This document shows, in pieces, positions 10,001 to 60,856 of a stretch of 64,000 nt of DNA. Each line of letters opens with the position of its first letter. The stretch's first letter is position 1. The position numbers and the translations under genes are program-made. The notes beneath the pieces were generated by a model, which saw only the letters and a program-made list of their open reading frames with translations, was not told where the DNA came from and made no database searches. This DNA is from Fibrobacterales bacterium Fibro_02. GTDB lineage: Bacteria; Fibrobacterota; Fibrobacteria; Fibrobacterales; Fibrobacteraceae. The DNA is taken from positions 1-64,000 of the forward strand of contig LVAE01000057.1 in NCBI GenBank assembly GCA_001603905.1, written 5' to 3'.

Positions 10001-13000
10001 TTGTATCAATTGTCAAAGAAACAAGTTCTCCGCTAAACACAGTTATCGTACAGGATTTCGTTGTTGAAGCAGATCTATATCGACACGAAACAGGATCATG
10101 TCCCTCAACATTCACATACACGACGGGTTCTTTATCACTATCAATATTACCTGCAAAGGAAACCGTCAAATCCCTCTTACGAGCCTTGGCAGTAGCCTTA
10201 AGAGAAATCGCAGTACCAGGAGTCACATCAGCCAAAGTTCTACTTTCATTAGGAATAATAGTCACACACTTATTGGAAGTAGACTCCAAATTTACAGAAC
10301 TTCCACCACTCAATGAAATCGTCCAAGAGTCATTCTTATAGTTTTCAATATAACTAGTTCCATGCGGAACAACCCATGTTTCTGTCGAAATACAATTCGG
10401 CCAATCATTGATATTGTCCGGGCAATCATCCGAATGGGACTGACAATAAGCTTGAATATCTGCAGCCGTAGCATTCACGCGATTCAATGTTGCCGTAGAC
10501 GCAATATTAACAACAGTGTACGGGATATCGCCAACGTTATAGCCCTCACCTGCCATAACCTGGAATGCTAAAGTTCCATGTGTAGCACCCGAAGTCGAGA
10601 CGCTGAATATATTTATTACAGTATCTTTTTCTGGTTTAGCATCTATTGCAAACGAACAATTGGGAGCAGTTCCATTATTTGTCAACAGAGGGCTATATGT
10701 CCAATTTTCAACGGTTTCTTGAGGGCATGCAATATTTATATTTAAAGGCAGCTCATGCTTTGTAACTAAAACACCAATCATTTTGGTATCTATAGAGCCA
10801 ATCTGCTGATAATCAGCTGTGAACGAAACGGATGGCACAGACCGTTGGCTAGCACCAACAACCACCCAAAACGGAACTTCCTGATTATAGCCAGATACAT
10901 TTGCCTTTACTACACACTTATAATTACCTCTAGTCAGTTTAGCATCTCCTGCCGTATACAATTTCGCAGTCATCGACGTCGGCAAAACACCCGTTCCACC
11001 ATAAAGAGCGGAACATCTATCTATTTTCATATCTGATTTTTTCAGATGTGATCCATTCAAGGGAATAATATTGATATAATCCCCCAAAGAACCATAGGGA
11101 TCATCAGGCAACGAAACTACTCGCGGAAAAACGATAAACGACGAATCTACATCAGACTTGTCTGCGTTTTGCCTTACAGGAGGCAAAGTTTCGCTGCTTT
11201 TTGTTTGCGACTCCAGAGAAACCCCTAATTGCGGAGCCATCGAAATAAAGTAACGATCCTTAAAATTAACGACATCAACATCGCTTTCTGTACTGGACGA
11301 ACTTGAAGACGGCGTTGCCGAAGCAGTTCCGCAGGCAGCAGCAGTCACCGAAGCATCACAAAGAATCGACGCTTCAGACAAAGCTTTTATCAATCGAGAG
11401 TTTGTATCAAGATCTGCTTCCTGGAAAGACATATGAATACAGCTTGCAGCAGGAGAATAGATATTGCCTTTCAGGTGGATCTTACTCTGTTGAGGCATTT
11501 CTCCTTCTGTATAGATAAACATGTTATTAACTTCATTGTTATTCCCCATAACAAGGGCATCTGCAACACCTTGTTCCAAATACAAGAAAACATAATTATT
11601 ATCGGCATCACTATCGGCACTATATTTGGCCGTAGGCAAACCATTCTGAGCATGAATAGGAACAGTGGCTATAATAATGAAATTTCCATTTAAAGTTCCT
11701 GTAATTGACCCTGTACTTGAAGTTATCCTTACAACGACAAAACCATTGTAGAAATTCTGTTTTACATATTCTTCATCATTTTTATGATCGTTATAGCAAG
11801 CATTCAAGCTCTCCACTAAATTTTCATCCCAAGATGTAATTGATGCCGCGCACCCCTTTTGAGCATATCCTTGGAACTGATTTTTCGCAGTAACAATCGG
11901 ATCCGGGATGACAAACCTGGATCCGTCGCATCCGGTCGTTTCAGTCCATATTTTACTACACTTATCCAATGCAGAGTTTCCTCCCGCAATTTTTTCAGAC
12001 GGCAACGTACCGACAACATCACCTTCAGTCTGGAACCATGAAGCAAAATGGCATTGAGGTTGGGCATTCTGATGATCCGAGGAAAAAATCCCCTTAAACT
12101 CTCTATGCGGTGTACAATAGGGAGAACCTGTTATTGTTTTTATAAAATGATCCGCTTCCCACATATTTTGTTTTCCCCACAAACACGTAGCATTATAGCA
12201 ATCCCATTCATTAGAATTATCATAAAACGGAGTAGGCGTCTGATAATGATCGTCTATAAAGTAAGCATAAAACATATACTCATCACCAGAATGAGTTTTC
12301 CAATAATTATTTTCATATTCCCTAAAAGTTATAGTCGGCCCATCACTAGAATGCAGATAATATCGATCATCCTTTACCTGTTCCGAATAAATTTTAAATG
12401 TGCCATAATTTGCATCTTCAGGCCATTTATAGCCACAGGCATGAGCACTATTATTGCATCCTCTATTAGTCTCTCCAATTTGTCTTATTTTTTTCGATGC
12501 AGAAAAGGTCTTATAAGACGCATCTGAACGAGCCTTCGCACTGTAAACTTTTGACTCGCTACTTGTACCCAGAACAAGTTTATTGTATTTACTAGCATCG
12601 TGATTATCCCCTTCCGTTGTATACATTGACACATTCGCGCCCAACCAAACATCGTTGTATACACTGAAAGCATTATTTCCACCAAATCCCGTCAAGAGAC
12701 TATTTCCATCCATTACCAGGTTACCTTCAATTCGTCCATTATCGCAATCACCTACATTGAAGGTTCCATTCGCAACCGTCATATTTCCTAAGACCTTAAA
12801 GCCGCCCTTGTCCTCATTACTGCATTTTGACGAAACCATAAAATCACCATCAACATATACATTGCCAGCAACTTTTCCGTTAAACGGGTCAACATGCCCT
12901 CCCACATAAAGATCGTCACCACCCACAAAACCGTTATCGGCACCGAGATTTCCCCCAATGCAAGTCAACTGTCCCACTTCAATATAATCACCTGTCAAAA

Positions 13001-13646
13001 TAGCATTACCAGTCACAATCCAATCACCCTTAGTTTTAGGCGGGTTTGCATTCCAATTACCATTAATCGCAGCAGAAGCATACGTTGTCTGAGTACCTAC
13101 AACTTCACCACCGTAATAAGCATAGTTGAGATTTACGCTTTTAGACTCTGTAATATGCGGAACAGTAACCTGATACAAACCATCTACATTAAAAATGGCA
13201 GTTTCATTATGCCGTGTATTACCTCGAGCCTCTCCGGAAGACAATATTTTTACTTTATATGTGCTTTTTTCTGTATTAACACCAGTAATCCACACCTTGT
13301 AGGTTTGATCAGCCCTTTGGAACGGACGTAAACGTTCAGTAATATTGATAGGCTGATGAGTTTCATCTTCCACAAACTGTTTTATCACCGCACCTAAATC
13401 ATTGGCATGGAACGTCATCCACGCACGCGCATTTTCTATACCCGCCTGTGCCCCCTGCAGAGCTTCTCGTTGCAGCATTCTGCTTGCACTAGACTTACCC
13501 TCGCTCGTTATCCATTTCCAGGTTGCAGTTGCGGCAATGGTTGCAATCAACATAAACAAAAGCACGGCGATTAAAGAAACACCGGCTTTCATAGAACTCT
13601 TTGAGGAAAAACACCTCACCATTACTTTGTAGAAATTCGTACGCAT
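7005..13646 (-). CDS. Giant PilX/GspK-like minor pilin with very large multidomain ectodomain
   Basis: N-terminal KAGVSLIAVLLFMLIATIAATATWKW pilin-like helix; follows three prepilin genes; Ser-rich linkers (ESSSSESSSSSSEAEESSSSES), InlB-like and Cys-rich Ig-like domains. Start at 13646, just downstream of the preceding gene's stop, preferred. Confidence 0.75.
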   Translation of the reverse strand: MRTNFYKVMVRCFSSKSSMKAGVSLIAVLLFMLIATIAATATWKWITSEGKSSASRMLQREALQGAQAGIENARAWMTFHANDLGAVIKQFVEDETHQPINITERLRPFQRADQTYKVWITGVNTEKSTYKVKILSSGEARGNTRHNETAIFNVDGLYQVTVPHITESKSVNLNYAYYGGEVVGTQTTYASAAINGNWNANPPKTKGDWIVTGNAILTGDYIEVGQLTCIGGNLGADNGFVGGDDLYVGGHVDPFNGKVAGNVYVDGDFMVSSKCSNEDKGGFKVLGNMTVANGTFNVGDCDNGRIEGNLVMDGNSLLTGFGGNNAFSVYNDVWLGANVSMYTTEGDNHDASKYNKLVLGTSSESKVYSAKARSDASYKTFSASKKIRQIGETNRGCNNSAHACGYKWPEDANYGTFKIYSEQVKDDRYYLHSSDGPTITFREYENNYWKTHSGDEYMFYAYFIDDHYQTPTPFYDNSNEWDCYNATCLWGKQNMWEADHFIKTITGSPYCTPHREFKGIFSSDHQNAQPQCHFASWFQTEGDVVGTLPSEKIAGGNSALDKCSKIWTETTGCDGSRFVIPDPIVTAKNQFQGYAQKGCAASITSWDENLVESLNACYNDHKNDEEYVKQNFYNGFVVVRITSSTGSITGTLNGNFIIIATVPIHAQNGLPTAKYSADSDADNNYVFLYLEQGVADALVMGNNNEVNNMFIYTEGEMPQQSKIHLKGNIYSPAASCIHMSFQEADLDTNSRLIKALSEASILCDASVTAAACGTASATPSSSSSSTESDVDVVNFKDRYFISMAPQLGVSLESQTKSSETLPPVRQNADKSDVDSSFIVFPRVVSLPDDPYGSLGDYINIIPLNGSHLKKSDMKIDRCSALYGGTGVLPTSMTAKLYTAGDAKLTRGNYKCVVKANVSGYNQEVPFWVVVGASQRSVPSVSFTADYQQIGSIDTKMIGVLVTKHELPLNINIACPQETVENWTYSPLLTNNGTAPNCSFAIDAKPEKDTVINIFSVSTSGATHGTLAFQVMAGEGYNVGDIPYTVVNIASTATLNRVNATAADIQAYCQSHSDDCPDNINDWPNCISTETWVVPHGTSYIENYKNDSWTISLSGGSSVNLESTSNKCVTIIPNESRTLADVTPGTAISLKATAKARKRDLTVSFAGNIDSDKEPVVYVNVEGHDPVSCRYRSASTTKSCTITVFSGELVSLTIDTTLSDNRNFSYWKCSGSSCPTDYAVTSSKYESFYVTDNNTTVYAHFGESDKHCFFDEFKNGSVNCASLVVEEKKYCIDDCLSENNNVCASAEATGSVYANAKWHLISGAINDIHLDAYSGKIYVKKDKSVTVMSTVDAGRAGTLKALVQLPRVSSSLGSSSDKVRNTGFLLRSNADASSYLMLNVYMDNSNRVVAQICKNGGSCLSDILTRNSSPLYTSASNMVMISAIITKTDELIVSAYEGNYYGTPNVYTKSFDLSKLTSSNNTVNNVYVGYRLENSDLKLYGIGWISEEYASECHETPPIVKCSFAAKAENGVIPTQQDVEPWVGHSGWFDSRKYNCEKKFYYYNGTDACGGSSTGVVACNGSYNFSNDGAGQHGYDGQKTAKAGLKCTLDGTDGMWAADPEDAETGESYRAHCGTFWTGNYTECTHHADLFSGELYLSDIGDEQVATFTKENLRSASLRIEAENPDNSEVEVWLFSESDGYGEDNYPSLASSFSGTVGTIDVSSLLGGSGGFDPEKVVQIAFKSKNTGVVVIKSVTSVCSQAVGVESCNVSRSGHGPTATLNVDAMITNLELVGSFVVSGTCTDPGPGSDDKTVSKTMTDGYSNNSDGSITLSDVANGTDIPPKHTCSLSLTVIPEGSSTGYTKQCSGGEAEDDVSCTTTIEKNSVELGANSPTFTFVLDHCPAGGCGEYEIKLGSQTVFTGTCETGPRCSASKSGSAQTAVGTGYTYSVISKADPALFTCDTKSFDVVAASSNSTETSSESVAEESSSSESSSSSSEAEESSSSESLLSVTCSVGNASTMSNQSGKSVGDSISVTPYTVSGCNSSGCSYSIVAESHTISPAQTSSTYDGGSISFADAGASDTENYTLTISLGGESHSCTFSVTYSTGEESSSSEAEASSSASMPTVALTNTENNSGGPLTTGSYKVTAIASCSNVRFNCEYNFTNTGCSIGVNANTAVSGEMNSSNNILSPKPVVGDVLTVTGTVTNIWCAGW

Positions 13647-13659
13647 AGGAAACTCCGTG

Positions 13660-15081
13660 CTAATCTCTCGGACCGTTGCTAGGGGTTGCAACAACTAAAT
13701 CAACATTGCCTGTTTCGCCTTTTCCGCCATTCTTGGCACCCCGGCTAACCTGCAATTTCAATTTAAAAGCCTTTACATTTTTCTTTTCTTTTTTATTAGC
13801 ACCCAATTCAGGGTCAAACCCATTAAACTTATAATTCGCCGTAGCCACTTGATGGATTTTAACGTTCTTAATTATAACCTTACCTTGTGACACTAACGGA
13901 GAAAAACTTGCAAAGGTAAATGCCAAGCAAACATTATCAACAGCTTCAGGCACAGTAAAACGCATAGAGCGTTTTCCAGTACCACGCGAAGCATCCATTG
14001 GCGGGAAGAACATAAAATCTTCTATAACAATTTTTCCATCTTTCTTCGCATAATCCCCGGACCCAGCCTTTCTGAAGCCAACCGACATATGATCCATTCC
14101 AGGAACAAACATCAAGCTCTTGTCATATTCGCCCACATACCCCAAATCAAATGACACTTCATAAACCGTATCAGGATGCAAGGTCATTTTGCCATACGAA
14201 TCACAAAGTGTGCTCCAATTATCTTCGGCAGATCCAGATTCATTTTTTATAGCAAAAGCCTGATTTTTCTTTCTATATGTAGCCTCTAAAATTCCACCAA
14301 TGCCCTCATCATCACTATTTCTGTAGTTTGAATAAAAACCCGAAAGAATAATAGCAGTTCCTCCGACATTTTCAAAACCCGCTGTATTTACAGCGTTAAA
14401 GCCAGCATAGCCTTCATCACCTACACGAGGAACTAACCTAAAAGAATCCATATCATCCGGTGGAAACAATTGTGATTTTTCAACCTTCACACCAGGATTC
14501 GCAGCTTCGACATTAAACACTGTTACGCCAGAAGCCATTTGAACAGGTTGGCTCCCTTCCTTACAGGGGTCATCATCACTAATAGTCACCCCTTCAGCAA
14601 CATCCTTAATAGAGCAAGAACGCAACAGAGTCTTGTTTTTCGCATCCATATACCAACGGACTTCTTCAACGGCCAAAAAATAACCGTTATCATCATAACG
14701 AATTCGACGTAATGTCAAATCACTAAAGCCGTCATCATTCGTCAATAAAAAGGAGGAGGAATCTTTTTTGTCCGGGTCATAATCTTCAGGGTGCATGTAA
14801 ACATTCTCGTTTACGTCCTCAAATTTCACACCATACTCCGTGCCTAAGTCAGCCACACCTGTTTTTCTGGCACTCTTTGCACCCATTTGAGCAACATCTT
14901 CTCTAAACAACATTGCCACATTCTCGGCTTCTTGTGAAGCCTTGATCATGTTATCGGTACGGATACGGAACTTGGTGGAATTGCTGAAAGCCTCACCGGC
15001 AATAACAACAACAATGCCCACAATACCCATATAGACCATAAGTTCCATAAGGGTGAAGCCAGATTTTTTCAAGCTTTTCAT
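13660..15081 (-). CDS. Prepilin-type N-terminal cleavage/methylation protein (PilW-like)
   Basis: KKSGFTLMELMVYMGIVGIVVVIAGEAF type IV pilin signature; 4-bp overlap with upstream gene. Confidence 0.9.
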   Translation of the reverse strand: MKSLKKSGFTLMELMVYMGIVGIVVVIAGEAFSNSTKFRIRTDNMIKASQEAENVAMLFREDVAQMGAKSARKTGVADLGTEYGVKFEDVNENVYMHPEDYDPDKKDSSSFLLTNDDGFSDLTLRRIRYDDNGYFLAVEEVRWYMDAKNKTLLRSCSIKDVAEGVTISDDDPCKEGSQPVQMASGVTVFNVEAANPGVKVEKSQLFPPDDMDSFRLVPRVGDEGYAGFNAVNTAGFENVGGTAIILSGFYSNYRNSDDEGIGGILEATYRKKNQAFAIKNESGSAEDNWSTLCDSYGKMTLHPDTVYEVSFDLGYVGEYDKSLMFVPGMDHMSVGFRKAGSGDYAKKDGKIVIEDFMFFPPMDASRGTGKRSMRFTVPEAVDNVCLAFTFASFSPLVSQGKVIIKNVKIHQVATANYKFNGFDPELGANKKEKKNVKAFKLKLQVSRGAKNGGKGETGNVDLVVATPSNGPRD

Positions 15082-46357: not shown

Positions 46358-49300
46358 TTACCGCACCACGATTTTAGCAGCCTGCTGCTGTGAGCCTGCG
46401 CGGACGCGGAGCATGTAGAGGCCGGACTTCGGAGCGTCCAGCACCAATGCGTTCGTGCCCTCGAGGGTCTTCGCATTCACGGTCGACATCACGTGTCCCT
46501 TCATATCCAGCAAGTCGACGCGCGCATTGGTGCCCGCAAGGCCCGTCGCCTCAAAGGACACCTTCAACTTTCCGCCGAGCCTTGCGGAGCGCAGGCCCTT
46601 GAGAGAGTTCTGTGCAACGACCTTCGCGGCAGGAGCCACACGAACCGTAGCAGTCTTCGCATTCGACTTCAGGAGCACCTGGAGCGGAACACCGTCCTTC
46701 ATTTCGGTCGTGTTGCCGTCCACCGTCACGAACACGCGGTAGCCGAAGGCATTCACATCATCAATACCGACAAGCGTCAGGTAACCCACACGGTCGTTAG
46801 ATGCAGACAGGGCCACGGTCCATTCCATTTCGTCGCTTGCGGACTTGATGGACTTGGCGAGAGCGCGCTTGCCTTCCACGATCGAGAGGTTCACATGGTC
46901 GCCCATACTTTCAGGAGGTTCTTCGGCGCTGAACGGGTTGTTGCCCGCACCCAGAATGTTCCAGGCATCCTGCTTGCCGTTCTTGTCAGAGAGCACGGCC
47001 TGCAAGACCCAGCGATCCTTGGTAGAAGCCTTCGCGAGCACGCGCTTCAGCAACATGCGACCACCTTCAGGCTTTTCCGGCTGAGGTTCACGTTCCGTTG
47101 CCTTGGCAAACACCGGTGCGGCAGACACCTTCCAGTTCTTCTTCTTGCCCACCTTGGCCCAAACGGCTTCGTAAGGCTTCAGGTACTTGGTTTCTTCGTA
47201 ATCAGCCGTTTCCGAATTATAACGGTAGAAGCTGATTTCCGATTCCTCGTCCACATCCTTTTCTTCATCCGCATGGCCGGCAAACAGGCTGACTTCCCAA
47301 CCATGAGTATTTGCCACCAGGTTCCAGCCGCTGTGAACGCTATCGAGTTTCCAGACAGCATCCTCGCCGTCATCTTCGATATCGCGCTTCAGCACCAGCG
47401 GGAGGCTATCCAGCGAGCTGTACCAGGCACCACGGGTAGCAACCACCGAGTCACCGCGGTTATACCGCTTGTACTGCCAGTAGTCACCGCCGTTGCCAAA
47501 TTCATCCCACCAGTAGAAGACCTGGTCGTCGGACGTCCAGTTGACCGCCGAGGTATCCACGGCTGCAAGGGAAACCATCTGCCAGCCATCCTTACCCACC
47601 GAGGCAATGGAGGACTTGACACCAAATTCCTGCTCGAACGCATCCGATTCCTTCTCGTCTTCGAGAGTGAGGACCACCTTGTAATCACCCGTGCGCTTCA
47701 TGCGGAGAACCACTTCGGATTCGAAGCCCATCGCCACGGAATCACCCAGCAAGGAATCGAGCACCACCGAGTCGCCCTTCACATCGAAGACACGTACTCT
47801 AGCTTCCACGCCGCGGGTCACTTCGAACTCGCTCGCCTTGATGTTCAGCTGGATAGCGTTTCCACTCTGGGCAAAATGCCTTTCAACAATTTCGACCGGA
47901 GTCTTGTTCGCCTTGCTGAAGTGGGCCTTAAAGACAGCATTATCCATATTGCCCGGCAGGTTACCGCCTTCACGCAGCACCGCCAGCAACTTGTCGTTGC
48001 GGACAATGGTAAGCGAATCCAGAGCGTAGCTCGAATCCGGAGCAGAACGCAGCGTCCATTCGGCACTCACGATGTCGGACGGAAGCATCATCGAGCCCTT
48101 TTCGTTGAACTTGTGGACAACTTCGGTGGATTCGCCAGTCTTTTCGACAAGCATCACCTCACCCTTGTCCTGTTCCACGGACACGCGGGTCATCAGAGCA
48201 GAGCACTGATCCGGAGAGTCGCTCCAGAGAGCATACATATTGATCTTTGTCGTATCCGTGAGCTTCGGATACTTTTCATACAGCTTGTTCGCCAGTTCGT
48301 CCTGCATCTCCGTATAGGCGACGGCATCGTTCTTCAAGGTCCAACCGACAAGGCAACGACTTGCGCTGTAGACCATCGTCGGGAACTGGGAAGCACTGGT
48401 GCCCTTGGCGATAACCTTCTTTCCAGAGGTCCAGTCGTCACCATAGAACAGCGTTTCCTTCGATTCCGCGTTGAACGCCAGGTTGAAGCCAACCACCTTG
48501 ACGAGAGCATCGAAGCTGGTCGCTTCAGAGACGAGCACGAATTCGTCATTCTTTGTAGTATCGGCAGCAGCCGCATTCCAGACGAGCGACTTTCCGCTAT
48601 TCAGCAAGTGGGATTCGTTCGCTTCGAAGTGGGCACGGAATTCCAAGCCGCCTTCAACATAAGGCACCTTGAGACCCTTTTCACCCACCACGAAGGTGAA
48701 TGTAGAATCGTCCACAAGCTGCTGCAATGTCAACGTTCCCTGTCTCAAGCTATTGGACTTGACCGATACGGTTTTGACATTAGCCTTTTCCCACACGGCG
48801 TAGAGGACCGGGCCCCTAGACATCTGAGCGAAATCCATACCGTACATTTCCTGAATCTTGGACAGGTCGAAATCACCTTCGGAAATATCACCGATAAGAC
48901 CTTCACCGTAGTGTTCCATATAGGATTCAACAGCTTCGTTGAAGGCATCATCGATTTCCTTGAACGCCTTGTCAGGAGTTGCATTCTTGTCGAGGCTCCA
49001 ACCCACGAGCTTGGCATCGGTACGGTAGATTCCGGTCGGGAGATTCTGTCCGTAAGAAGAGGCCCACCACTTGAATCCAAAGTCGCTTTCGTAGAACACA
49101 TCTGCATTGCCCGCATTCACGTCAAGCGCAAATTCCATAGTAGGCATATAACTTATAGCCCTGAGCATCACATCCTTACGGAACGTATACTCATCGCCCA
49201 TCTCAATGACCGCGATCTGCGTACCCGTCGTAGAAATCACACTGATTCCTTCATACTCGGCCGTTTCGGAAGCCGAAACGAACGACACGGTGAACACTAG

Positions 49301-52300
49301 ATCATTTTCAGCAGGGATCACGAGCATCGTTGTCGCATCCACCAGGAATTCATTCGAAAGGCCACCCGAAGCATTCGTCAAGCGGAACTTGCCTTCGGAA
49401 GCCTTATTACCAACGGTCACCGTGTAAATTTCCCTATTCGGAGCAGATTTCCACACGGCGTACAGCGTATCCGGCGTATCGAAGTTTTCACGAGTTTCAG
49501 CATGATTCTTGAAGGCCTCATAGAAGTCATCATCAATCTTAGTGAAGTACTTGCTACCTTCGGCAACGCCACTCATCTGCGTGAAGGACCAGCCCACGAA
49601 TACGGCGTCGTTACGATAGATTCCAGACGGAAGATTGTCGTTATAGAAATCTCCGTTCATGAGGTTTTCGAACCATTTCGGATCGTAGCTTGTGCCGTAG
49701 AACACAGTTGCGTCATCCGCATTCAGAGCGAACACGAGACCCTTGCTCTTGGGTTCCACATTGGCCTTCAGGACCGTATTCATGTCGAAGCTGTACTCGG
49801 CTCCGTTTGCAAAGCCAGAATAGCTGTTCAGATCATCGTCGAGAAGATCAATTTTTTCCAGCTCATAGGCATGTCCTTCGTGGAACGTAACCTTGAAATC
49901 AACGACGTGAGTCGGAACCGCCATCAGCGAACCAGCAGACAATTCGTAGCTGTTGACAGCATCGCTAATCGTGAACGAACCTTCAGCTTCCGTATTGCCG
50001 CTACGCAAGACTACATAGCCATGGTTGCAGTCCTCGGTAGTCCATACGGCATAAAGTGTCGTCGGCTTTACTTCAAGAGCCTTGTAGGCCTTGATGAATT
50101 CAGTGCCAACTTCCTGGAACGCTTCAGATTCCGTAGCAGTCTTCGAGAAGGCGAAACCAGCCAGGCACTTGCTCGTCTGATAAGCTGTCGGGAAATGATA
50201 GTCGAATTCTTCGTCGGCAAGGTCATACGACTTTGTTGCAGACCATTCCAAGTTGTAGAACACGGTATCGTTTGCAGCCTTGTTCGCATCGAAGGCGAAG
50301 GTGAGGTCCAACACAGAGGCTACAGCCTTCAATTCAGAATTCTGACTGAAGGAAACCGTGGCACCGTCGGCAACCGTCGCAACGGTTTCGTCACCGGCGA
50401 GTACGCTCACTTTGTTTTCATAGTCAACGGTAACATTCTCGGCAAAGGTCACAGAGAATGTCAGGTCTTCTGCAGCCGGAATAACCAAGGCTTCTGAACC
50501 CACTTCAAACTCGTTGGCGATTTCGCCATACTTGTTTGTCAAGGTGAATACGCCTTCGGATGCATCCTTCGCAGCCACCGTGTAGTTTGCGTAAGTTTCC
50601 GGGCAATTCTTCCATACGGCCACGAGAGTTACCGGAGAAGTCAATTCGCGTTCCTTGAATTCCGTGATGAATTCATCGCTGATGGACTTGTAAACCACAG
50701 ACTCATCGGCATTGAAGGCGAAGCCGTCGAGACACTTGTCGGTGCGGTAGAGCGAAGTCGGGAAGTTCAGATCTTCTTCGGCATCGGCAGGGCTATAGGT
50801 CTTGCCGCTGAACCAGTTGTCACCGTAGAACAGCGTAGCACCATCGGCATTGGCATCGAAGGCAAGCACATAGACATCGTTTTCGGTAGCAACCGTAATT
50901 TCGGTATTGCCCGCCAATACGAAATCTTGTCCAACGAATACATTCGTAACTTCACCATCTACGTCAAGGGCGACAGGCAAATCTCCCACTACAGAATGAG
51001 TATTGAGAGGTTCAAAGTAAGCCCTGAAGATCAAGTTGTTTTCGGCAGGGACCTTGAGTCCGTCAGCACCGACGGCGTATCCGATGGAATCTGCGAACGC
51101 CCACTGGGCAACAACTAGGTTACCGGCACCGAGAGTTTCTTCGGTAGACGTAATCGTGTAGGTTGCGCGTTCGGCATTAGTCTTCCACACGGCATAGAGC
51201 GTCGTGGGAGCCGTTTCCTGGGCTACATAGGCGTCCATGAAGTCCTTGTCGAACTTGGTGAACCAGACTTCAGCAGCATCATCTTCGATAGCCTCAAAGG
51301 CCCAGCCCAAGAGATTTGCATCGGTACGGTAGATGTTCTTCGGAAGTTCAGCACCGTACGCAGCACCCTCCGAGGTCCAGGTCTTTGCATATTCCTTACC
51401 GTAGAACACGCTAGCTTCGCCGGCATTGGCATTCAAATCGAACGCGACAGCCTTCAGAGTCGGAGTTGCCTTAAGAGTAGCATTCTTCGCAAAGCTATAG
51501 GTCTTCGCATTGACCAGGGTGTAGTCGTATCCGTCAACCAACGAGATCGTAATTGTTCCTGTTTCTGCATCAAAGTCATAAGCGCTAGTCGGGGTGAACG
51601 TGACCGTAAATTCAAGGTCATCGGCAACCGGGACTTGAACAGCAGCAGATTCTTCGCTAGCGGGCAGCTTAATTTCCATGTCCGCATTTGTCAAGGTAAA
51701 CTCACCTTCTTCAGATGCATTCAAAGCGCTGATCATTACATTGCTGGTAATGGCAGAGCAATGCACGCCAGGCTTCAGCCATACGGCATACAGAGTCGTA
51801 GGCTTTTCTTCGAGAGCCTTGTAATCTGCAATGAACGCAGAATCGATTCCCGTATAGAACTTGACATCCGGCATCGTGATAGTGTAGCCGTCTTCCAGCG
51901 GTTCCATCGCAGTGAAGGCAAAGCCACCCAGGCAGTTCTGCGTCTGGTATGCGGAAGTCGGGAACTTAGAATCAAGCTCTTCTTCGCTCATATCGTAAGA
52001 CTTCGTGGCAAACCAGTCCTTTCCGTAGAAGACCTGGTCGTCTTCACCCACATTGATATCGAAGGCGAATTCGTAAGAGTCCACCTTGGTCGCCACGTTA
52101 ACCATTACGGTTCCTGCCGCACCAAGGGTTTCTGTATGAACAACCACTTCGTCACCAGTTGCATACGAACCAACCGTTTCATCCGTGATGAAGCTCTTCA
52201 GGGTAATCGGGGTTTCACCATCAAAGCTATGGGCCGTATCGATAGCGAAGTTCACGGTCAGCGCAAGGTCTTCGACCATGGGGACATCGAGCATACCATC

Positions 52301-55300
52301 TTCAAAGACATGCACAATGGTCGAATCGCCAATCGTCTGGCTGAGCGTCAGTACACCAGCGTTCTGGTCCAGAGTTTCCTCTGTCAGCTGAAGACTATAA
52401 GCAGGAATCACCCCAGAAACAGTCCAGACGGCATGGAGCGTATCCGGATAATTTCCTTCATGAGCTGCGGCATAGGCATTATAGGCCGCGACAAAGTCTT
52501 CGTTAAGATTCAGCATCGGAGTTTCTTCGTTGTCAAACTTCCAGCCTGCAAACTTATATCCTGCGCGGTAGAGATTTGACGGCAGTGCTGCACCAAAGGA
52601 AACACCTTCCGAGCTCCAATTCCAGCTGAAACCCGGACCGTAGAACACATCGTCGTAACCGGCATCAAGGGCGAAGTTCATCTCAATCAGATTAGCTTCG
52701 ACATTGAGCTTTACGTCAGGCTGTTCAGCGGCAACGGTAAAGGATTCTCCATTTTCAATTTCAAAGAGTTGTTCGGCATTTTCGGCATCAGCTTTGACAC
52801 CTGTAATGACATCACCTGTTTCATAAGTATCAGCCCCCGTGAACTTAACCGCAAGGGACAATCCTTCAAGTTCAGGAATAACCAGGCCTTCTTCAGGGAC
52901 ATCCATCCAAACAGCATTTTCTGCATCAGGATTCTGTGATACCTGGAATGTTCCCTGACCTTCTGTCATACCCGAGAAGACCTTGAATGTTTCCGGTGTA
53001 CAATTGCTATTCCACTGGGCAGACAGCGTATAGTAAGTATGATCCACGGATTCACCTTCGTCATTCTGAACCGTTTCAACGGTAGCCATGACATCCTTCA
53101 AGGCATCAACAACCTCATCAAAGTTGCTATAAATTTCCGGTTCCTCTATTCCAGGAATAACCCAGCCTTCAAAGCAGGCGTCCGTACGGCGTAAATCCTG
53201 CGGGAAAGCCTTATCTTCATCGCCGGAGTCCAACGTCAAAGTTTTTTCCTTGACCCAGTCCGTGCCATAGAACACAGGGGCATCACCTGCATTGACATCA
53301 AACACAATCAGGTAACTCATCATTTCGACATCTGTCGTGAATGTATAAGTCGGCGTACTCGGAATACCGACAGAAGTCAGGTGCCATACGCCACCCTTTT
53401 CGGCATCCGGCTCAACCTCCACCGTTTCAATGTCAGGATTAGAACCTTCCGTTACCGGCAGCGTATACTGGTAGCTGAGTTCGTATTTAGCATCTGCAGC
53501 ATAGTGATAGCCAGACTTCGGAGCGCTTCTGACAGGATCAATGTAGACATCGAAAGAATCACCTTCAAGAGTCAATCCGCGACGATCTAAAACTTCGTGG
53601 AACAAGGTGTCGTCACCGAACAGCTGGTACAGCACGAGTGTCGCGTTCATCTGGCCATTTTCCACAGTCCACAGATTACGATTTTCGGAACAGTCATCAC
53701 CCCAGATGGCATACAATGTCGTGGGGTTGTCCGGGTTCGTGCTAAATTCCGTGAAGTTGCCCGCATTAAAGGTCGTGTAGGCACTATCGTCAGCAGTATA
53801 ATTTGCGGCAGCCGTCGTAGACCATCCCTGGAAACAGGTGCTCGCACGGTACGGTTTCCAGAAGACAACCGTATCGGCGTTGTTTGCCAGTTCAAGCTTT
53901 TCCGACTTCGTCGCATTCGTCGGCAAATAAGTATCCGCGGAATCGGTTACACCAAGAGACAAATCGTAGGTCACATAAATCGGGGCAAGAGACTTGAACT
54001 TGACGGTCCACGGCAAGGATTCCATCACGTTCACTTCAGCACTATCTTCCACCGTGACCGTCATCACGTTGCCGTTCTTGGCCGTTTCGTAGGAAATCTT
54101 GTCCAACGTGTAGTTTTCAGCAGGTACGGCCACAACCCTGAACTTGACGCCAATCTGTTCAATCAGGAAATCCGGTCCCACTTCATTGTACGCGGCAGGT
54201 ACATTCAGGGTCAGAACGCCAGTTGCTTCATCTTCAACAAAAGAATGCGCAAGCACAACCTGGGCAGGATCTTCCGGAGATTCAGGAGCATCCCCAATCA
54301 CCTGTTCCAGAAGAATCGTTCCTTCACCTTCAACCGTCAAGGTCTGCTTATAGGTTTCTGCATTATCGCAGTTTCTATTTGATTCATCGGTATCCGGAAC
54401 GAGCACGTTAATCGCCGTCTCCAACGTTTCGGTTGAAGTCATATAGACGAGTTCGCCAACAATACCGGTATCGATATGCGCTTCGGAGTCTTTAACTTTC
54501 CAGTAGACTTGGCAGCCATTTTCATCGTAAAGAATCGGGGTCTTGATATTGTTCACGGTCACATCGGTTTGAGACTCAAACCAGTCAACTTCATATTTAT
54601 TGTCAGAGACCCACTTGCTCGCCACAAACACTTCAGCATCTGTAGGCCTAGAGAATTCAACATTGTAATGCAATACGGTAAACGAAACATAAGCTTCGTT
54701 GGCCCAGCTACTCATTCTACTCGGTTGAACTTTCAAAGTCATGACTTCGGGATCCAAATTGTAACCCCAATCTTCACCTTCAGGAAGATCAGCAGAGCCA
54801 CCGTCATCATCAGACCAGCCAAAGGCCGTATGTTCAGGATGACCCTCAATATAATCTTTCAACGTCATCGCATAACCCGGATCCGGTTCCAGCGACACAT
54901 TGTACACCAAGGTATCATCGGCTTTGGGGATAAACAATCTATGTAGATATGTATGTGCATCCGCGGCAGTGAACTGCGATTTCTGCTTATAAGTCTTTCC
55001 ATTCCATGTTTGCGAAATGACGACACTTCCGTGATAAGATTTAGGGTCACTATCATTATCGGATCTAAACCAAATAGGCCAAGCATCTCTAGCATCATAT
55101 CCGTTAGTCAATTCCGAAACAACCATCGGATAAGCCGCCATAGCAGTTTCAGTAGAATTCTCTCCAAAATATTGCGTGACGAGATCCGAATTAAACGGTT
55201 GCTTCATTGAGGAACTAATATAGGTGCCGTACCAAGCATTCCATTCCGTTTCATCTTCAGGAGCCTGTTCCTTAGCCCAGTACACTTCGTTAAAAGAGTA

Positions 55301-58300
55301 AGGACCATAGGTACCAGAGCCATGGAATGCATACAAATTCGGGAACTCATTAGCTGTACCCACGTTCATGACAGCCGTTCCATTCCCTGCGTCAACCTTA
55401 TCATACCAGCTTTGTCCAAACGCAACAATTTCGCTATCCAACGAGCTGATATCGAAAGCGATGGTATAGGGGGTAAACGAAAGGGTCGCAGGAACAAACT
55501 TCGCGTAGAAATACCTATTCTGCAGGTGGAGTTTTCCATCCGTGAAAGAAGCATACTCCGAACCCGTCAAGTCAGTATCTTCAAGTTTAATGGAACCGAC
55601 TTCGTAACCGGGATTCGAAGTGAACGACACGTCCAGCGTAAAGTCAGAGAACGGAACGCGATACTTCTGCGGGAAAGCAATTGCTTCATCAGAGCTGTGC
55701 GTCAGGGTAACTTCCTTGCCCGCAATATTAAAGGTTTGCGAGAGGGTTACGCTCATCGGATGGTCATTTGAACCACAACCTTCCGTTTCGTTAGGACAAC
55801 CAATCTTGATCTTTGTGATTTCGTCATACGATTCACCCCACACAGGATAGAGAGGGACGGTATTTTCTTCAATAGTGAAACCACCTTCGTCAACAGCTTC
55901 CTGAATAGCAACAACCATATCTCCCGAGAACTCCTTGAACAGGTTCTTGCTGTCGCTTTCAATGCAGTCCTGGCCATCCGATTTAACCTGATCCACAACA
56001 CAATAGGCGCTATCCGCATAAATGGTCCAACCAACAAGAGCAAAAGATTGGTTCGCATTGCCTACGAAAGACGGATTCACTTTCATAGTCGTTGCATACA
56101 GCATAGGCAACTTCAGCGCTGTTTCGCCAAGGACATAAGATTCAGGCAAATCGAGGTCCGCATCGGCAACATAGAGTTCATATTTGACATTGTAATACTC
56201 ATCCCCCCATTGGGAGGAGATATAGTCCCAATTTTCGGTATCGAAGGCATAGTTATAGGACTCGCCACCAATCAGGTCAACATTGAATTCGTAATTGCCG
56301 CTCACCGAGAACTTGCGGTCACCAAAAACCAAACGGGTTTCAACAACTTGGCCGCCTTCTCCTTCAGATGTCATTATCGCATAGTACGAATTGCTCGTAA
56401 CGGCATACCCCTCAGCAGGCACCGCATGGGCTTCAAAAGTGAAGGAAACCGCAGATTCATCACCCGTAGTAGCATCTGTATAAGTTACCTTCGGAATTTC
56501 CAGAGTGAACAGAGTCTGGTTCTGATCATCCTGCGTCATCACATGTTTGATGGTATCGGCATGGGAATTTTCACCTTCAGCACCAATAATCTGCCAAAGC
56601 TCCATACGGGTCAAATGAGCCGCATTAAGCTTTGCGTGCGCCGTAACTGTAAAGGATTCCGTCGGAGCATCACCACATTTAGAGTCCCAATCACTATACG
56701 TAACTTCATACTCGCTCTTGGTAAAGTAGACTGGATAAAGATCCATGGGGCTTTCAAAGTTCTGCACAGCAAGATTATCAAACTCACTATAAACAGGTTT
56801 TACAGCATCATAGAAATTGACGTCAGACCATGCAATACATCCTCCTGCAGCATAAAGCACAGGCATCCGCGTATCCGTGTTATTGAGAGAATAAGTCTTA
56901 GAATCTTCCCAAGAAGCACCAACGTAGCTATCGGGAATATAAACATCAACCGGAGAAACACCATTCTTTGGAGAATTATCCCCTATTGGGCGGATAAAGT
57001 TTACCAAATAATCAACATAATCAAAAGACGGAGTAATCTTCATCGTGAAGTTCGTCAAATTAAGGCTGCGCAAAGCATATGCCTTATAAATGGAATCCAA
57101 ACGAATGGTATCGGCAGTCGTGAAAGTCCACACCTTCGTCCCGTAATTTTGAATAAGGTCTTGCGATGTCACCAAGTAATTATTAGTCGACGAAACCATA
57201 ACAGGATCATTAGCCATTGTAGAATAACCGAATTCTACCACATATTCATCAACCTTATAACCAGCTGGAGCTTTCACTACAAAACCCGCTGTCAATGTGG
57301 CCGAAGGAGGCTCCGTATCGACACTCATTTTGTACGCTGACTTTTCATTTCCATTGACATCAAATGCGACAGCATCATAAGTAAACACCGGAGTAATCCC
57401 CGTTTCCGGGTCAGGGTCCAAACCATTTCTAAGCACATAAGCCAAATAAGAATCTTGTTCAAGATCATAATACAAATGCAAAGTATCATAATACTGATCA
57501 GGATCACTATACGGCAAAAGATTCGTTCTAAAATAATCAAAAGACCTTTCAGCCAGGTAAGACGAGACAAGGCTATATTCATCTGTTTTCGGCTTAATTT
57601 GATAATTATGAGGTAAAACTGTTTTTGCACCAGAAGAAGAAGTCACGACCATTGGAGGAATGAACAAGCCATATTCACTCGTTTCAAATTTCTTTACAGG
57701 GTTAAGAAGGAAAGAAATGTCATAGCCATCAATATCTTGATCCGGTTTTACTTCGTATTCGGTTCCCACACATACATACCCCTCTGCCGCCTCGGAATAT
57801 TCGAGCAAACCGGTACATAAATGATAAACAACATTCATCTTGATGTTTTCGAAATAAGCATAATAAACATCACTACCGAAAATAGTTGATTCGTTTAATT
57901 CCTTATCACCATACCAGTAAGAATCTTCATCCAAAAGACTATTTACAAATTCTAAATCCTCGGATTTCAACGTACCAGTATAATCCGTATACACATTCAA
58001 GCCATAACAACCAGAGCCACAATATTCAATATCATACTTACCAGCATTGACAGCAGCATCTAGGATTGCCTTTTGGTCTTCATAAGCGGGATTACTTTGG
58101 AGAATGTCAACTTCAAAAGCGACTATATGCAAAGCATGATAGTTCGCATCGGCAAAGAACGGTAGATCTTTATTTACACCATCAACACGGGTCCAAGCTC
58201 CGTCCCACATATTAAGGATAACAGCGAGCTTCCCCCTCTTCATAGAGTTTCCACTAACAACACCATTATTCCAATCTACATCAGTCCCTACATCTATAGG

Positions 58301-60856
58301 ATAAATACCGAACACCAAGTCACCATCTGCATCAAGTCCGCTGACAGCATTACGAATGTTCCTATTTATGTAGCGACCATTCACATCATTTTCGTCCCAA
58401 AGAGTGGGTTTATGCCAACCATTCACCGTGAAAGAACCAATACCCAAACTCGCCTGAGCATCTTTTGTACCATAGTGATAGTTGTACTGGACGCTATAAA
58501 ACTCCGTAGACAAGCTATCTAGGGATCCAATCAAATAACCGATTTTAGCATCGTTTGTTTCCGTGGTAATATCACCGATTGAATAAGTATGTCTCAGATT
58601 CAGGCTAACCTTAGAACCATCCGCATTTCCATTTTCAATACGTCCAACAAAACCTCCCACATAAGCACCCTTAGCAACATCACCCGTCAAAAACGATTTT
58701 TGGATTTTCAGGGACGAAGCATAAGCATATCCCACCAAGCCACCAACAACAGCGGCATCAGAACCGGTAACATTACCGTCAAAAGAAGAATTCTGGACAT
58801 CAACTAAACCAGCAGCGTTTCCAACAAAACCACCAACATTGGCAGCACCAATGACAGTCGCATTTTCAACCTTGACATTTTTAATCGTGACATTGCCGCC
58901 AGCCTTGCCAGCAACAACACCAACATCATTCGACCCCGTAGCATTGACATACGCATTCGTAAACGTAACATTACTTATAGTCAACGGTTTTGACTCGGCA
59001 TTAACAAAGCCAAAGCTAGATGATCCAATCTGGCAAAGGCCATCGATGGCATATCCATTACCATCGACAACAACGGCTGTTTCCGTAGCAGTACTCCAAC
59101 TATTTTCTGCATATGCATCAGGAATAGGATTAAACTGCATGGAGCAAGCGCCATTTTTGTAACCGCCAAAGCGAAGAGTATCCGCCAATTTCAATGTATA
59201 ACTGGGGTAATGAGATTTAAACATATCAACAAGGCCAAACTCACAAGATCCAGAAACAACAGATGAACCATACGGACCGGTCACTTCGCAAACCTGGCTT
59301 TCATCCATTGTTCCACGGTACCAATACTTGAAATCTTTCCACTCGCTAAGATTATTATGGTCTCGATAAGGATCTTCCACAACCTTCTGCGAAATAGTAC
59401 AAACACTGTTTTCGCACTCCATATGGAAATAGACGTGATCTTTCAAGCCACCATCTTCATCAAACGCAACATTTTTCGGATTAGCAAAATAATACGACAC
59501 AACAACATCGTCATCCTGAACTTTAAAAGTCCTTACACTTTCGGAAACCTTTGTTACTTCAACTGATTTTCCATCTTGCTTCCTGACAACCTTGAGTTCA
59601 CCCAAGAAATATCCTTCATCCGGCGTAATACTCAAAGTAACCAAATCACCATATTGGGCTGTCGATTTGTCAATAGATACACTTCCTCCGGAAACGGTTC
59701 CCGAAGCATCCGTAATTGACCGATTTTCCTCAACATCCACAACATACACTGTAAAATCAATATTTACACCACCCCACTGTTCTCCTTCCAAAGCAACAGC
59801 AACAACATTGCTACCGCTATAAACATCTTCTACACTACCAAAATTCATGGAATGAAGAATTGAAGCCTCAGAATTTTCCCCATCATAAATATTCAAGCTT
59901 TCCAAATAGCCATTTGCGGATCCCGCAAATTTCAAGATTTTTCCTGTGGGAGCATTCAATACAACGGTTCCACTCGCAGAAACACTTCCATCACTATCGG
60001 CTCCACCATCATCATACAGCTTAAAGGACGTAACCCCATTGGGTATCGTTATCGTCTTAGGGGTCCCCGATACAGGAATATTAACGAACAGACCACCATC
60101 TGCAGTCAAATCATTGGTATAGAGAGGAGTAATAGTCGCATCCCCATAAGGCATAGAAAATGTGGCAGCGTTATCAAACGACGTGGAAAAGTCCACCTTT
60201 ACAGGAACTCCATCAGAGGATACCACATTAAGTCCGGCAGGCAAATAACCTGCATCTGGTTGTAACTCCAAGGAAATCTGAGTATTTATCGTAGCAGAGG
60301 TCACTCCACCGACCACGGTCACATCGCCATTCTCGATAACAGAGCCCTTCTGAATTTCATGAGGGACGGAAGGATCTAAAACAGTTACTTCAAGCTCCAA
60401 ATCGGAATTTCCACCGGACAGAGAGACTGTCAAAACATTCTCTGTGCTACGAACTACTGCAACGGGATCATTCGTTCCATTGCCGGAAGTTATTACATAA
60501 AGCAATTCCGAACCGGAAAGGGTTCCGTCATAAATATACAGATGTCCCGTAAGGGACTCCCTACCAGTAACAGTTCCCGCGACCTGGATTATACGTCCAG
60601 TGGGAGCGGTCATCTTAAGTTTTCCACTACAATTATAGGTAGAGCCACCTTCACCGTCGGAATAACCTCCGTCATCGTACAGCTTGAACGAGGTAATATC
60701 ATCAGGAATTGTTAGTTCATCTGTACCACTTACGGGCAGATTGATGTAATAACCATCCCCATCATTTTCGAGAGACCTTGTTGCAGACCAAGCTACAGAA
60801 ACAGCAAACAGGGCCGTTAGAATAAAAACCGAAAGATTGTTTATTTTCGTTTTCAT
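46358..60856 (-). CDS. Giant secreted surface protein: CUB-like domains, GLUG-like segment, List/Bact-type repeats, T9SS type A-like C-terminal tail
   Basis: Signal peptide MKTKINNLSVFILTALFAVSVAWSA; repeated LYAVW/VFYG/IYRTD motifs; C-terminal VDLLDMKGHVMSTV...GLYMLRVRAGSQQQAAKIVVR. Confidence 0.9.
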   Translation of the reverse strand: MKTKINNLSVFILTALFAVSVAWSATRSLENDGDGYYINLPVSGTDELTIPDDITSFKLYDDGGYSDGEGGSTYNCSGKLKMTAPTGRIIQVAGTVTGRESLTGHLYIYDGTLSGSELLYVITSGNGTNDPVAVVRSTENVLTVSLSGGNSDLELEVTVLDPSVPHEIQKGSVIENGDVTVVGGVTSATINTQISLELQPDAGYLPAGLNVVSSDGVPVKVDFSTSFDNAATFSMPYGDATITPLYTNDLTADGGLFVNIPVSGTPKTITIPNGVTSFKLYDDGGADSDGSVSASGTVVLNAPTGKILKFAGSANGYLESLNIYDGENSEASILHSMNFGSVEDVYSGSNVVAVALEGEQWGGVNIDFTVYVVDVEENRSITDASGTVSGGSVSIDKSTAQYGDLVTLSITPDEGYFLGELKVVRKQDGKSVEVTKVSESVRTFKVQDDDVVVSYYFANPKNVAFDEDGGLKDHVYFHMECENSVCTISQKVVEDPYRDHNNLSEWKDFKYWYRGTMDESQVCEVTGPYGSSVVSGSCEFGLVDMFKSHYPSYTLKLADTLRFGGYKNGACSMQFNPIPDAYAENSWSTATETAVVVDGNGYAIDGLCQIGSSSFGFVNAESKPLTISNVTFTNAYVNATGSNDVGVVAGKAGGNVTIKNVKVENATVIGAANVGGFVGNAAGLVDVQNSSFDGNVTGSDAAVVGGLVGYAYASSLKIQKSFLTGDVAKGAYVGGFVGRIENGNADGSKVSLNLRHTYSIGDITTETNDAKIGYLIGSLDSLSTEFYSVQYNYHYGTKDAQASLGIGSFTVNGWHKPTLWDENDVNGRYINRNIRNAVSGLDADGDLVFGIYPIDVGTDVDWNNGVVSGNSMKRGKLAVILNMWDGAWTRVDGVNKDLPFFADANYHALHIVAFEVDILQSNPAYEDQKAILDAAVNAGKYDIEYCGSGCYGLNVYTDYTGTLKSEDLEFVNSLLDEDSYWYGDKELNESTIFGSDVYYAYFENIKMNVVYHLCTGLLEYSEAAEGYVCVGTEYEVKPDQDIDGYDISFLLNPVKKFETSEYGLFIPPMVVTSSSGAKTVLPHNYQIKPKTDEYSLVSSYLAERSFDYFRTNLLPYSDPDQYYDTLHLYYDLEQDSYLAYVLRNGLDPDPETGITPVFTYDAVAFDVNGNEKSAYKMSVDTEPPSATLTAGFVVKAPAGYKVDEYVVEFGYSTMANDPVMVSSTNNYLVTSQDLIQNYGTKVWTFTTADTIRLDSIYKAYALRSLNLTNFTMKITPSFDYVDYLVNFIRPIGDNSPKNGVSPVDVYIPDSYVGASWEDSKTYSLNNTDTRMPVLYAAGGCIAWSDVNFYDAVKPVYSEFDNLAVQNFESPMDLYPVYFTKSEYEVTYSDWDSKCGDAPTESFTVTAHAKLNAAHLTRMELWQIIGAEGENSHADTIKHVMTQDDQNQTLFTLEIPKVTYTDATTGDESAVSFTFEAHAVPAEGYAVTSNSYYAIMTSEGEGGQVVETRLVFGDRKFSVSGNYEFNVDLIGGESYNYAFDTENWDYISSQWGDEYYNVKYELYVADADLDLPESYVLGETALKLPMLYATTMKVNPSFVGNANQSFALVGWTIYADSAYCVVDQVKSDGQDCIESDSKNLFKEFSGDMVVAIQEAVDEGGFTIEENTVPLYPVWGESYDEITKIKIGCPNETEGCGSNDHPMSVTLSQTFNIAGKEVTLTHSSDEAIAFPQKYRVPFSDFTLDVSFTSNPGYEVGSIKLEDTDLTGSEYASFTDGKLHLQNRYFYAKFVPATLSFTPYTIAFDISSLDSEIVAFGQSWYDKVDAGNGTAVMNVGTANEFPNLYAFHGSGTYGPYSFNEVYWAKEQAPEDETEWNAWYGTYISSSMKQPFNSDLVTQYFGENSTETAMAAYPMVVSELTNGYDARDAWPIWFRSDNDSDPKSYHGSVVISQTWNGKTYKQKSQFTAADAHTYLHRLFIPKADDTLVYNVSLEPDPGYAMTLKDYIEGHPEHTAFGWSDDDGGSADLPEGEDWGYNLDPEVMTLKVQPSRMSSWANEAYVSFTVLHYNVEFSRPTDAEVFVASKWVSDNKYEVDWFESQTDVTVNNIKTPILYDENGCQVYWKVKDSEAHIDTGIVGELVYMTSTETLETAINVLVPDTDESNRNCDNAETYKQTLTVEGEGTILLEQVIGDAPESPEDPAQVVLAHSFVEDEATGVLTLNVPAAYNEVGPDFLIEQIGVKFRVVAVPAENYTLDKISYETAKNGNVMTVTVEDSAEVNVMESLPWTVKFKSLAPIYVTYDLSLGVTDSADTYLPTNATKSEKLELANNADTVVFWKPYRASTCFQGWSTTAAANYTADDSAYTTFNAGNFTEFSTNPDNPTTLYAIWGDDCSENRNLWTVENGQMNATLVLYQLFGDDTLFHEVLDRRGLTLEGDSFDVYIDPVRSAPKSGYHYAADAKYELSYQYTLPVTEGSNPDIETVEVEPDAEKGGVWHLTSVGIPSTPTYTFTTDVEMMSYLIVFDVNAGDAPVFYGTDWVKEKTLTLDSGDEDKAFPQDLRRTDACFEGWVIPGIEEPEIYSNFDEVVDALKDVMATVETVQNDEGESVDHTYYTLSAQWNSNCTPETFKVFSGMTEGQGTFQVSQNPDAENAVWMDVPEEGLVIPELEGLSLAVKFTGADTYETGDVITGVKADAENAEQLFEIENGESFTVAAEQPDVKLNVEANLIEMNFALDAGYDDVFYGPGFSWNWSSEGVSFGAALPSNLYRAGYKFAGWKFDNEETPMLNLNEDFVAAYNAYAAAHEGNYPDTLHAVWTVSGVIPAYSLQLTEETLDQNAGVLTLSQTIGDSTIVHVFEDGMLDVPMVEDLALTVNFAIDTAHSFDGETPITLKSFITDETVGSYATGDEVVVHTETLGAAGTVMVNVATKVDSYEFAFDINVGEDDQVFYGKDWFATKSYDMSEEELDSKFPTSAYQTQNCLGGFAFTAMEPLEDGYTITMPDVKFYTGIDSAFIADYKALEEKPTTLYAVWLKPGVHCSAITSNVMISALNASEEGEFTLTNADMEIKLPASEESAAVQVPVADDLEFTVTFTPTSAYDFDAETGTITISLVDGYDYTLVNAKTYSFAKNATLKATPTLKAVAFDLNANAGEASVFYGKEYAKTWTSEGAAYGAELPKNIYRTDANLLGWAFEAIEDDAAEVWFTKFDKDFMDAYVAQETAPTTLYAVWKTNAERATYTITSTEETLGAGNLVVAQWAFADSIGYAVGADGLKVPAENNLIFRAYFEPLNTHSVVGDLPVALDVDGEVTNVFVGQDFVLAGNTEITVATENDVYVLAFDANADGATLFYGDNWFSGKTYSPADAEEDLNFPTSLYRTDKCLDGFAFNADESVVYKSISDEFITEFKERELTSPVTLVAVWKNCPETYANYTVAAKDASEGVFTLTNKYGEIANEFEVGSEALVIPAAEDLTFSVTFAENVTVDYENKVSVLAGDETVATVADGATVSFSQNSELKAVASVLDLTFAFDANKAANDTVFYNLEWSATKSYDLADEEFDYHFPTAYQTSKCLAGFAFSKTATESEAFQEVGTEFIKAYKALEVKPTTLYAVWTTEDCNHGYVVLRSGNTEAEGSFTISDAVNSYELSAGSLMAVPTHVVDFKVTFHEGHAYELEKIDLLDDDLNSYSGFANGAEYSFDMNTVLKANVEPKSKGLVFALNADDATVFYGTSYDPKWFENLMNGDFYNDNLPSGIYRNDAVFVGWSFTQMSGVAEGSKYFTKIDDDFYEAFKNHAETRENFDTPDTLYAVWKSAPNREIYTVTVGNKASEGKFRLTNASGGLSNEFLVDATTMLVIPAENDLVFTVSFVSASETAEYEGISVISTTGTQIAVIEMGDEYTFRKDVMLRAISYMPTMEFALDVNAGNADVFYESDFGFKWWASSYGQNLPTGIYRTDAKLVGWSLDKNATPDKAFKEIDDAFNEAVESYMEHYGEGLIGDISEGDFDLSKIQEMYGMDFAQMSRGPVLYAVWEKANVKTVSVKSNSLRQGTLTLQQLVDDSTFTFVVGEKGLKVPYVEGGLEFRAHFEANESHLLNSGKSLVWNAAAADTTKNDEFVLVSEATSFDALVKVVGFNLAFNAESKETLFYGDDWTSGKKVIAKGTSASQFPTMVYSASRCLVGWTLKNDAVAYTEMQDELANKLYEKYPKLTDTTKINMYALWSDSPDQCSALMTRVSVEQDKGEVMLVEKTGESTEVVHKFNEKGSMMLPSDIVSAEWTLRSAPDSSYALDSLTIVRNDKLLAVLREGGNLPGNMDNAVFKAHFSKANKTPVEIVERHFAQSGNAIQLNIKASEFEVTRGVEARVRVFDVKGDSVVLDSLLGDSVAMGFESEVVLRMKRTGDYKVVLTLEDEKESDAFEQEFGVKSSIASVGKDGWQMVSLAAVDTSAVNWTSDDQVFYWWDEFGNGGDYWQYKRYNRGDSVVATRGAWYSSLDSLPLVLKRDIEDDGEDAVWKLDSVHSGWNLVANTHGWEVSLFAGHADEEKDVDEESEISFYRYNSETADYEETKYLKPYEAVWAKVGKKKNWKVSAAPVFAKATEREPQPEKPEGGRMLLKRVLAKASTKDRWVLQAVLSDKNGKQDAWNILGAGNNPFSAEEPPESMGDHVNLSIVEGKRALAKSIKSASDEMEWTVALSASNDRVGYLTLVGIDDVNAFGYRVFVTVDGNTTEMKDGVPLQVLLKSNAKTATVRVAPAAKVVAQNSLKGLRSARLGGKLKVSFEATGLAGTNARVDLLDMKGHVMSTVNAKTLEGTNALVLDAPKSGLYMLRVRAGSQQQAAKIVVR
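47900..53330 (-). repeat. About nine consecutive ~600-bp coding repeats (List/Bact-type, ~190-220 aa)
   Basis: 'F.xD.N...VFYG' motif recurs near 53290, 52660, 52050, 51425, 50850, 50280, 49715, 49110, 48450; each followed by a '(R/Q)T(D/S)..L.G(W/F)' and 'TTLYAVW' motif. Confidence 0.85.

Follow-up and report, generated by a model that had tools for sequence, protein, structure and literature searches.

An all-or-none cysteine pair in the repeats of a giant, putatively type IX-secreted protein of Fibrobacterales

A giant repeat protein and its cysteines

The 64,000-nucleotide window analysed here, from contig LVAE01000057.1 of Fibrobacterales bacterium Fibro_02 (C42 in our contig numbering), belongs to a draft genome of 3.23 Mb (89% complete) and carries the gene of a giant repeat protein, P0001, whose well-formed repeat domains have either both or neither of two cysteines. 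An N-terminal signal peptide and a C-terminal sorting domain scoring above the cut-off of its NCBIfam profile (TIGR04183, 28.7 bits vs 23, residues 4774-4832) point to a protein routed to the cell surface through the type IX secretion system (T9SS). Two domains, D2 and D1, alternate from residue ~1281 to residue 4233. D2 follows the frame FYGxxW ... FPxxYRTDxCLxGW ... TLYAVW, and D1 is a strand-rich, all-beta domain. P0001 is a chain of ~190-residue units, each consisting of an alpha/beta D2 that resembles the Flg_new and InlB B-repeat domains and an all-beta D1.

Self-search, segmentation and alignment gave 14 copies of D2 (r1 to r14), of which 10 are well formed. Weak Pfam matches to Flg_new_2, Glug and Flg_new each fell below their own cut-offs. 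Searches for tandem DNA repeats, Rfam families and tRNAs found none, and the lack of tandem DNA repeats indicates that the P0001 repeats are old at the DNA level. We call the cysteine before xGW or GF C1 and the cysteine after LYAVW C2; class A repeats have both and class B repeats have neither. The features are as follows, with the repeats taken from the cysteine list and the segmentation.

46358..60856, minus strand: gene of P0001, a giant secreted repeat protein of 4832 residues (open reading frame), with an N-terminal signal peptide recognised by eye, MKTKINNLSVFILTALFAVSVAWS
46361..46537, minus strand: C-terminal T9SS type A sorting domain of P0001 (NCBIfam TIGR04183)
48158..53986, minus strand: array of the ten well-formed D2 repeats r5 to r14, alternating with D1 (self-search, segmentation, alignment and profile matches)
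56660..57016, minus strand: r1, diverged, pair C1340/C1394
55772..56266, minus strand: r2, diverged, four cysteines (1619, 1631, 1687, 1694) at non-canonical positions
55004..55477, minus strand: r3, diverged, cysteine-free
54335..54673, minus strand: r4, diverged, pair C2115/C2163
53636..53986, minus strand: r5, class A, C1 codon 53834-53836 (C2341), C2 codon 53690-53692 (C2389)
52946..53323, minus strand: r6, class A, C1 codon 53174-53176 (C2561), C2 codon 53000-53002 (C2619)
52358..52690, minus strand: r7, class B, cysteine-free
51713..52084, minus strand: r8, class A, C1 codon 51932-51934 (C2975), C2 codon 51758-51760 (C3033)
51119..51457, minus strand: r9, class B, cysteine-free, first half of structure model m76d5b8efcaf5
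50546..50881, minus strand: r10, class A, C1 codon 50732-50734 (C3375), C2 codon 50603-50605 (C3418)
50315..50611, minus strand: example of D1, lying between r10 and r11 and modelled mainly as strands
49976..50314, minus strand: r11, class A, C1 codon 50165-50167 (C3564), C2 codon 50027-50029 (C3610)
49385..49747, minus strand: r12, class B, cysteine-free, placed in the tree among class A relatives
48725..49147, minus strand: r13, class B, cysteine-free
48158..48496, minus strand: r14, class A, final repeat of the array, C1 codon 48353-48355 (C4168), C2 codon 48203-48205 (C4218)

All 31 cysteines of P0001 were located. Twelve lie in the stretch that holds the ten well-formed repeats (residues 2290-4233), all of them as C1/C2 pairs: six repeats carry both cysteines and four (at W2811, W3224, W3802 and W4022) carry neither, as the original prediction had read from the window. 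Because the repeats are related, the p-value for this concordance (Fisher p 0.005) overstates the case, and the window by itself is only suggestive evidence for a pairing rule. The classes run A A B A B A A B B A from r5 to r14; the order first proposed (A B A B A A B B A) was right from the second repeat onward and had omitted the first well-formed one. Among the diverged upstream repeats, r1 and r4 are paired, r3 has no cysteine and r2 has four that are placed otherwise.

The pair in related repeats and the origins of class B

A profile built from the ten window repeats and used to search genomes matched 59 of 80 genomes of the genus. At E 1e-4 there were no matches in other genera (16 genera of the class searched, with only the genus of P0001 itself matching). 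The narrow profile search matched two loci of same-genus relatives, one named F. succinogenes and one a Fibrobacter sp. from sheep rumen, which suggests that P0001 also comes from Fibrobacter; a long-query scan of genome contigs found no relatives. Our main set comprised 194 repeats with the LYAVW column, drawn from 33 other loci of the same genus and from the window. Both cysteines were present in 143 of these and neither in 47, and only four were one-sided by strict column. In each of the four, insertions had moved the partner (TCPSFVGW, GYCSDREW, a cysteine 9 residues earlier, and C2 at W+21). Held-out repeats from other genomes of the genus (n = 46) divided into 40 with both, 6 with neither and none one-sided, and six further held-out matches removed by the filter each had both cysteines by eye. 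A true one-sided repeat is thus absent among ~240 repeats, and the two cysteines are conserved or lost jointly. The rule read from P0001 extends to its homologues, and the many single-cysteine repeats that would have contradicted it did not turn up.

The D1 domains are nearly free of cysteine (6 in 154 segments). Some held-out repeats have extra cysteines; these number two, so the total stays even. In a group of shorter relatives (L091, L095, L096, L100, L102 and L104-L107), the last repeats have two cysteines beyond C1 and C2, which suggests a possible second disulfide. The form of the preceding motif, FPT or LP, had also been proposed to track the cysteine class. It does so within P0001, but we rejected it as a marker for the family on the counts of 59 FP and 41 LP in class A vs 16 FP and 28 LP in class B.

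A joint pattern of this kind could arise simply by ancestry, from two old subfamilies with and without cysteines that go back to a single event and multiplied as A-B pairs were duplicated. The 95-column tree was poorly resolved, so we used 190-column units, with all cysteines masked, to build an unrooted tree. Class labels do cluster strongly on the trees. In addition, one array of 20 repeats (L046, G058:C2) alternates almost strictly (AAABABABABABABABABBA), the order that duplicating an A-B dimer would produce, and the B repeats of the window alone do not reject one clade. However, the class label changes 13 times on the best tree, with at least four changes forced by starred branches, and a single clade for class B was rejected (p-value of the approximately unbiased test, p-AU, 0.0002; cost of 119 log-likelihood units; 95 repeats from nine arrays).

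The same conclusion can be seen at one syntenic position, the second-last repeat, where orthologues of constant length have switched class. L049 and L052 carry both cysteines (NDACLLGW or NDACLQGW ... LYAVWKECEVETYTV, with C2 in the stretch WKECEVETY) vs neither in L060 and L061 (ADAKLVGW ... LYAVW(MP/EP)AEVETYTV, giving WMPAEVETY or WEPAEVETY). The flanking D1 is closely similar across the four loci, and the C1 codons of L049 and L052 differ synonymously (TGT/TGC). Class B arose more than once and is not a single clade; simple ancestry as the whole story is already disfavoured, and we regard it as improbable. Class A makes up nearly all of the deepest groups (the first repeats, the last repeats and the short arrays), so that, with the tree unrooted, joint loss of the cysteines is probably likelier than gain as the direction of change.

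Strand geometry and the candidate disulfide

From an alignment of 27-30 units, taken from the window and from two relatives, AlphaFold2 gave models of a B-A tandem (mean predicted local distance difference test score, pLDDT, 92.7; predicted template modelling score, pTM, 0.79) and of an A unit (mean pLDDT 95.7, pTM 0.87). In the A-unit model, strand beta-3 spans residues 50-55, starting at C1, and strand beta-4 spans residues 84-91, with C2 at residue 93. For r10 this means that C3375 starts beta-3 and C3418 lies two residues past beta-4. The same two strands are longer at their cysteine-bearing ends in the B-unit model (47-53 and 86-93); this one pair of models is only suggestive of backbone pairing that would replace the bond.

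Residue coupling gave a second view of the two strands. In a mean-field analysis of the 194 repeats, six of the top 40 pairs joined beta-3 to beta-4 (p 1e-5), and five of these were in antiparallel register 147-149. Repeating the analysis on class A data alone gave four such pairs, all in register 148-149. In that register, column 50 (C1) faces column 98-99, the two columns where C2 falls most often. The models and couplings predict that beta-3 and beta-4 are adjacent antiparallel strands with C1 and C2 at their facing ends. The adjacency that the original prediction proposed to check in structure models is thus supported to the extent of facing strand ends, as read from strand positions and register. 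The strand order in the models fits a beta-grasp-like B repeat, and in the beta-grasp fold the two corresponding strands are also antiparallel neighbours. A Foldseek search against the PDB listed no B repeat, only matches of low template modelling (TM) score, and a PDB sequence search with the repeats gave no match.

Because the strand ends and the antiparallel register place C1 opposite C2, the best reading appears to be an intradomain C1-C2 disulfide in class A that is lost or gained as a unit. C1, as the first residue of beta-3, would bond with C2 past the end of beta-4, at the D2-D1 joint, closing the loop and anchoring the point where the chain leaves D2 to the sheet of that same domain. 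The two cysteines are separated by 41-62 residues (median 47), and the linker after LYAVW is ~2 residues longer in class A than in class B. Half-cystines are generally lost in pairs in protein evolution. Class B units would likewise have lost (less likely gained) both cysteines jointly, and more than once, as a lone cysteine after a half-loss would be useless or harmful. The disulfide presumably forms in the native protein through a DsbA-type periplasmic oxidant, for which the same genome offers a candidate, a DsbA/Thioredoxin_4-like lipoprotein with a CPYC motif (L085:1219-1953, plus strand, contig C10). The idea first proposed from the window, that a disulfide within the repeat comes or goes as a whole, has gained support from the ~240 repeats, the strand ends and coupling, the rejection of a single clade and the orthologue switch. 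We consider it likely that P0001 is a T9SS giant whose class A units are stapled by the C1-C2 disulfide and whose class B units lost both cysteines repeatedly.

Several points weigh against this account. The claim that no repeat has just one cysteine of the pair stood for the ten well-formed repeats and failed as a simple rule in r2, which has one cysteine after LYPVW and none at the C1 position. The cysteines of r2 are even in number and form two close pairs, unlike those of all other repeats in the array. The four B repeats of the window do not by themselves reject a single origin (p-AU 0.45), and the independent starred pairs number just five (four concordant, none opposite), which leaves a sign test without power. 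The nearness of C1 and C2 is a prediction from strand ends and coupling register. Finally, the habitat of the organism is anaerobic, and neither DsbB nor VKOR was found in the 89%-complete genome.

These last two points would also suit cysteines that bind a metal or work as reversible redox thiols inside the domain, and the covariation would look identical in that case. P0001 is an apparently exported protein, however, with two cysteines per domain and no conserved His, Asp or Cys partner among the near-invariant columns, and the genome does encode the DsbA-like CPYC lipoprotein; we find a metal or redox pair very unlikely. Bonds between neighbouring units or chains, making a cross-linked fibre, are conceivable from the location of C2 in the linker to D1, but they are the most improbable alternative, as the pair is kept or lost per repeat whatever the class of the neighbour (including isolated A units between B units in L046) and C1 and C2 are placed at facing ends of adjacent strands.

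Mosaic arrays and comparison with known systems

Under the intradomain disulfide, each array would be a mosaic of stapled and unstapled units. In mixed arrays, B units tend to lie nearer the C-terminus (relative position 0.63 on average vs 0.50; p 0.0008 by shuffling within arrays, with orthologous arrays not independent). Wherever the fetched sequence included the gene end of a mixed array, the final repeat was class A, and orthologous positions mostly keep their class. With B units C-terminal and presumably membrane-proximal, the last unit stapled and the order either conserved between species or strictly alternating, the order itself may be selected as a graded mechanical or hinge programme set along the tether by the on/off disulfide, a reading that we hold to be doubtful. 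The most likely role of the mosaic is speculative: stapled units would resist proteolysis and unfolding and give less length under load, and B units would serve as more extensible links. By our estimate (0.36 nm per residue), each staple would withhold ~47 residues, or ~17 nm, from extension on unfolding. The sequence fits the stiffness tuning first proposed for a putative fibre, protection from rumen proteases and plain domain stabilisation alike, and the three cannot be told apart from it.

The nearest known domain is the InlB B-repeat or Flg_new domain (PF09479), which shares with the P0001 repeats an N-terminal strand followed by the GYxFxGW and LYAxW strands. In InlB, the B repeat has been solved and is beta-grasp-like (PMC8900821). 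The PF09479 score for P0001 (10.3 bits) is below the curated cut-off of 27, and Flg_new matched in 2 of 30 units (best E 2e-5). What sets the P0001 repeats apart is a helix between beta-3 and beta-4, the cysteine pair and their alternation with D1. The pair is missing from the canonical Flg_new repeats that this genome encodes. A literature search found no paper joining the InlB B-repeat with Fibrobacter.

Two giant chains offer a comparison, which for titin is one of working rather than kinship. In the I-band of titin, ~40% of immunoglobulin (Ig) domains are proposed to have disulfide cysteines, and disulfides shorten the extensible length (PMC5766482). As in P0001, only a share of the tandem domains carries such cysteines, but fold and organism are unrelated, and the titin cysteine triad can isomerise whereas the P0001 family has a strict pair. 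The giant Ig-repeat adhesins of Mobiluncus are also bacterial surface proteins with covalently cross-linked repeats, formed by ester, isopeptide and disulfide bonds, with the disulfide joining adjacent strands of one sheet (PMC10619420). They are Gram-positive, Ig-like and mainly isopeptide- or ester-linked, in contrast to the putative T9SS export, disulfide-only linkage and on/off mosaic of P0001. The T9SS cargo of F. succinogenes shares the sorting-tail family (TIGR04183) and genus of P0001; the paper on it deals with cellulases and proteins of adhesion and, in the passages searched, does not describe these giant repeat proteins (PMC6851124).

Elsewhere in the window, a 2229-residue open reading frame (7005-13694, minus strand) has as its sole family match the N-terminus of the type IV pilus protein PilX, slightly below the cut-off. 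It adjoins a prepilin-like frame with an N-methylation motif (13660-15081, minus strand) and may encode a giant minor-pilin-like protein.

Domain-wise disulfides in giant chains are a known theme; an on/off staple in T9SS-tagged Fibrobacter giants was not described in the literature that we found. The same domain occurs with and without one putative disulfide many times, in one chain and at orthologous positions, and amounts to a natural experiment in which the share of a single staple in tether stability, protease resistance and extensibility would be measurable without any design. The Fibrobacter giants are, moreover, a largely undescribed set of probable T9SS proteins, and they come from a gut genus that is a major degrader of plant fibre.

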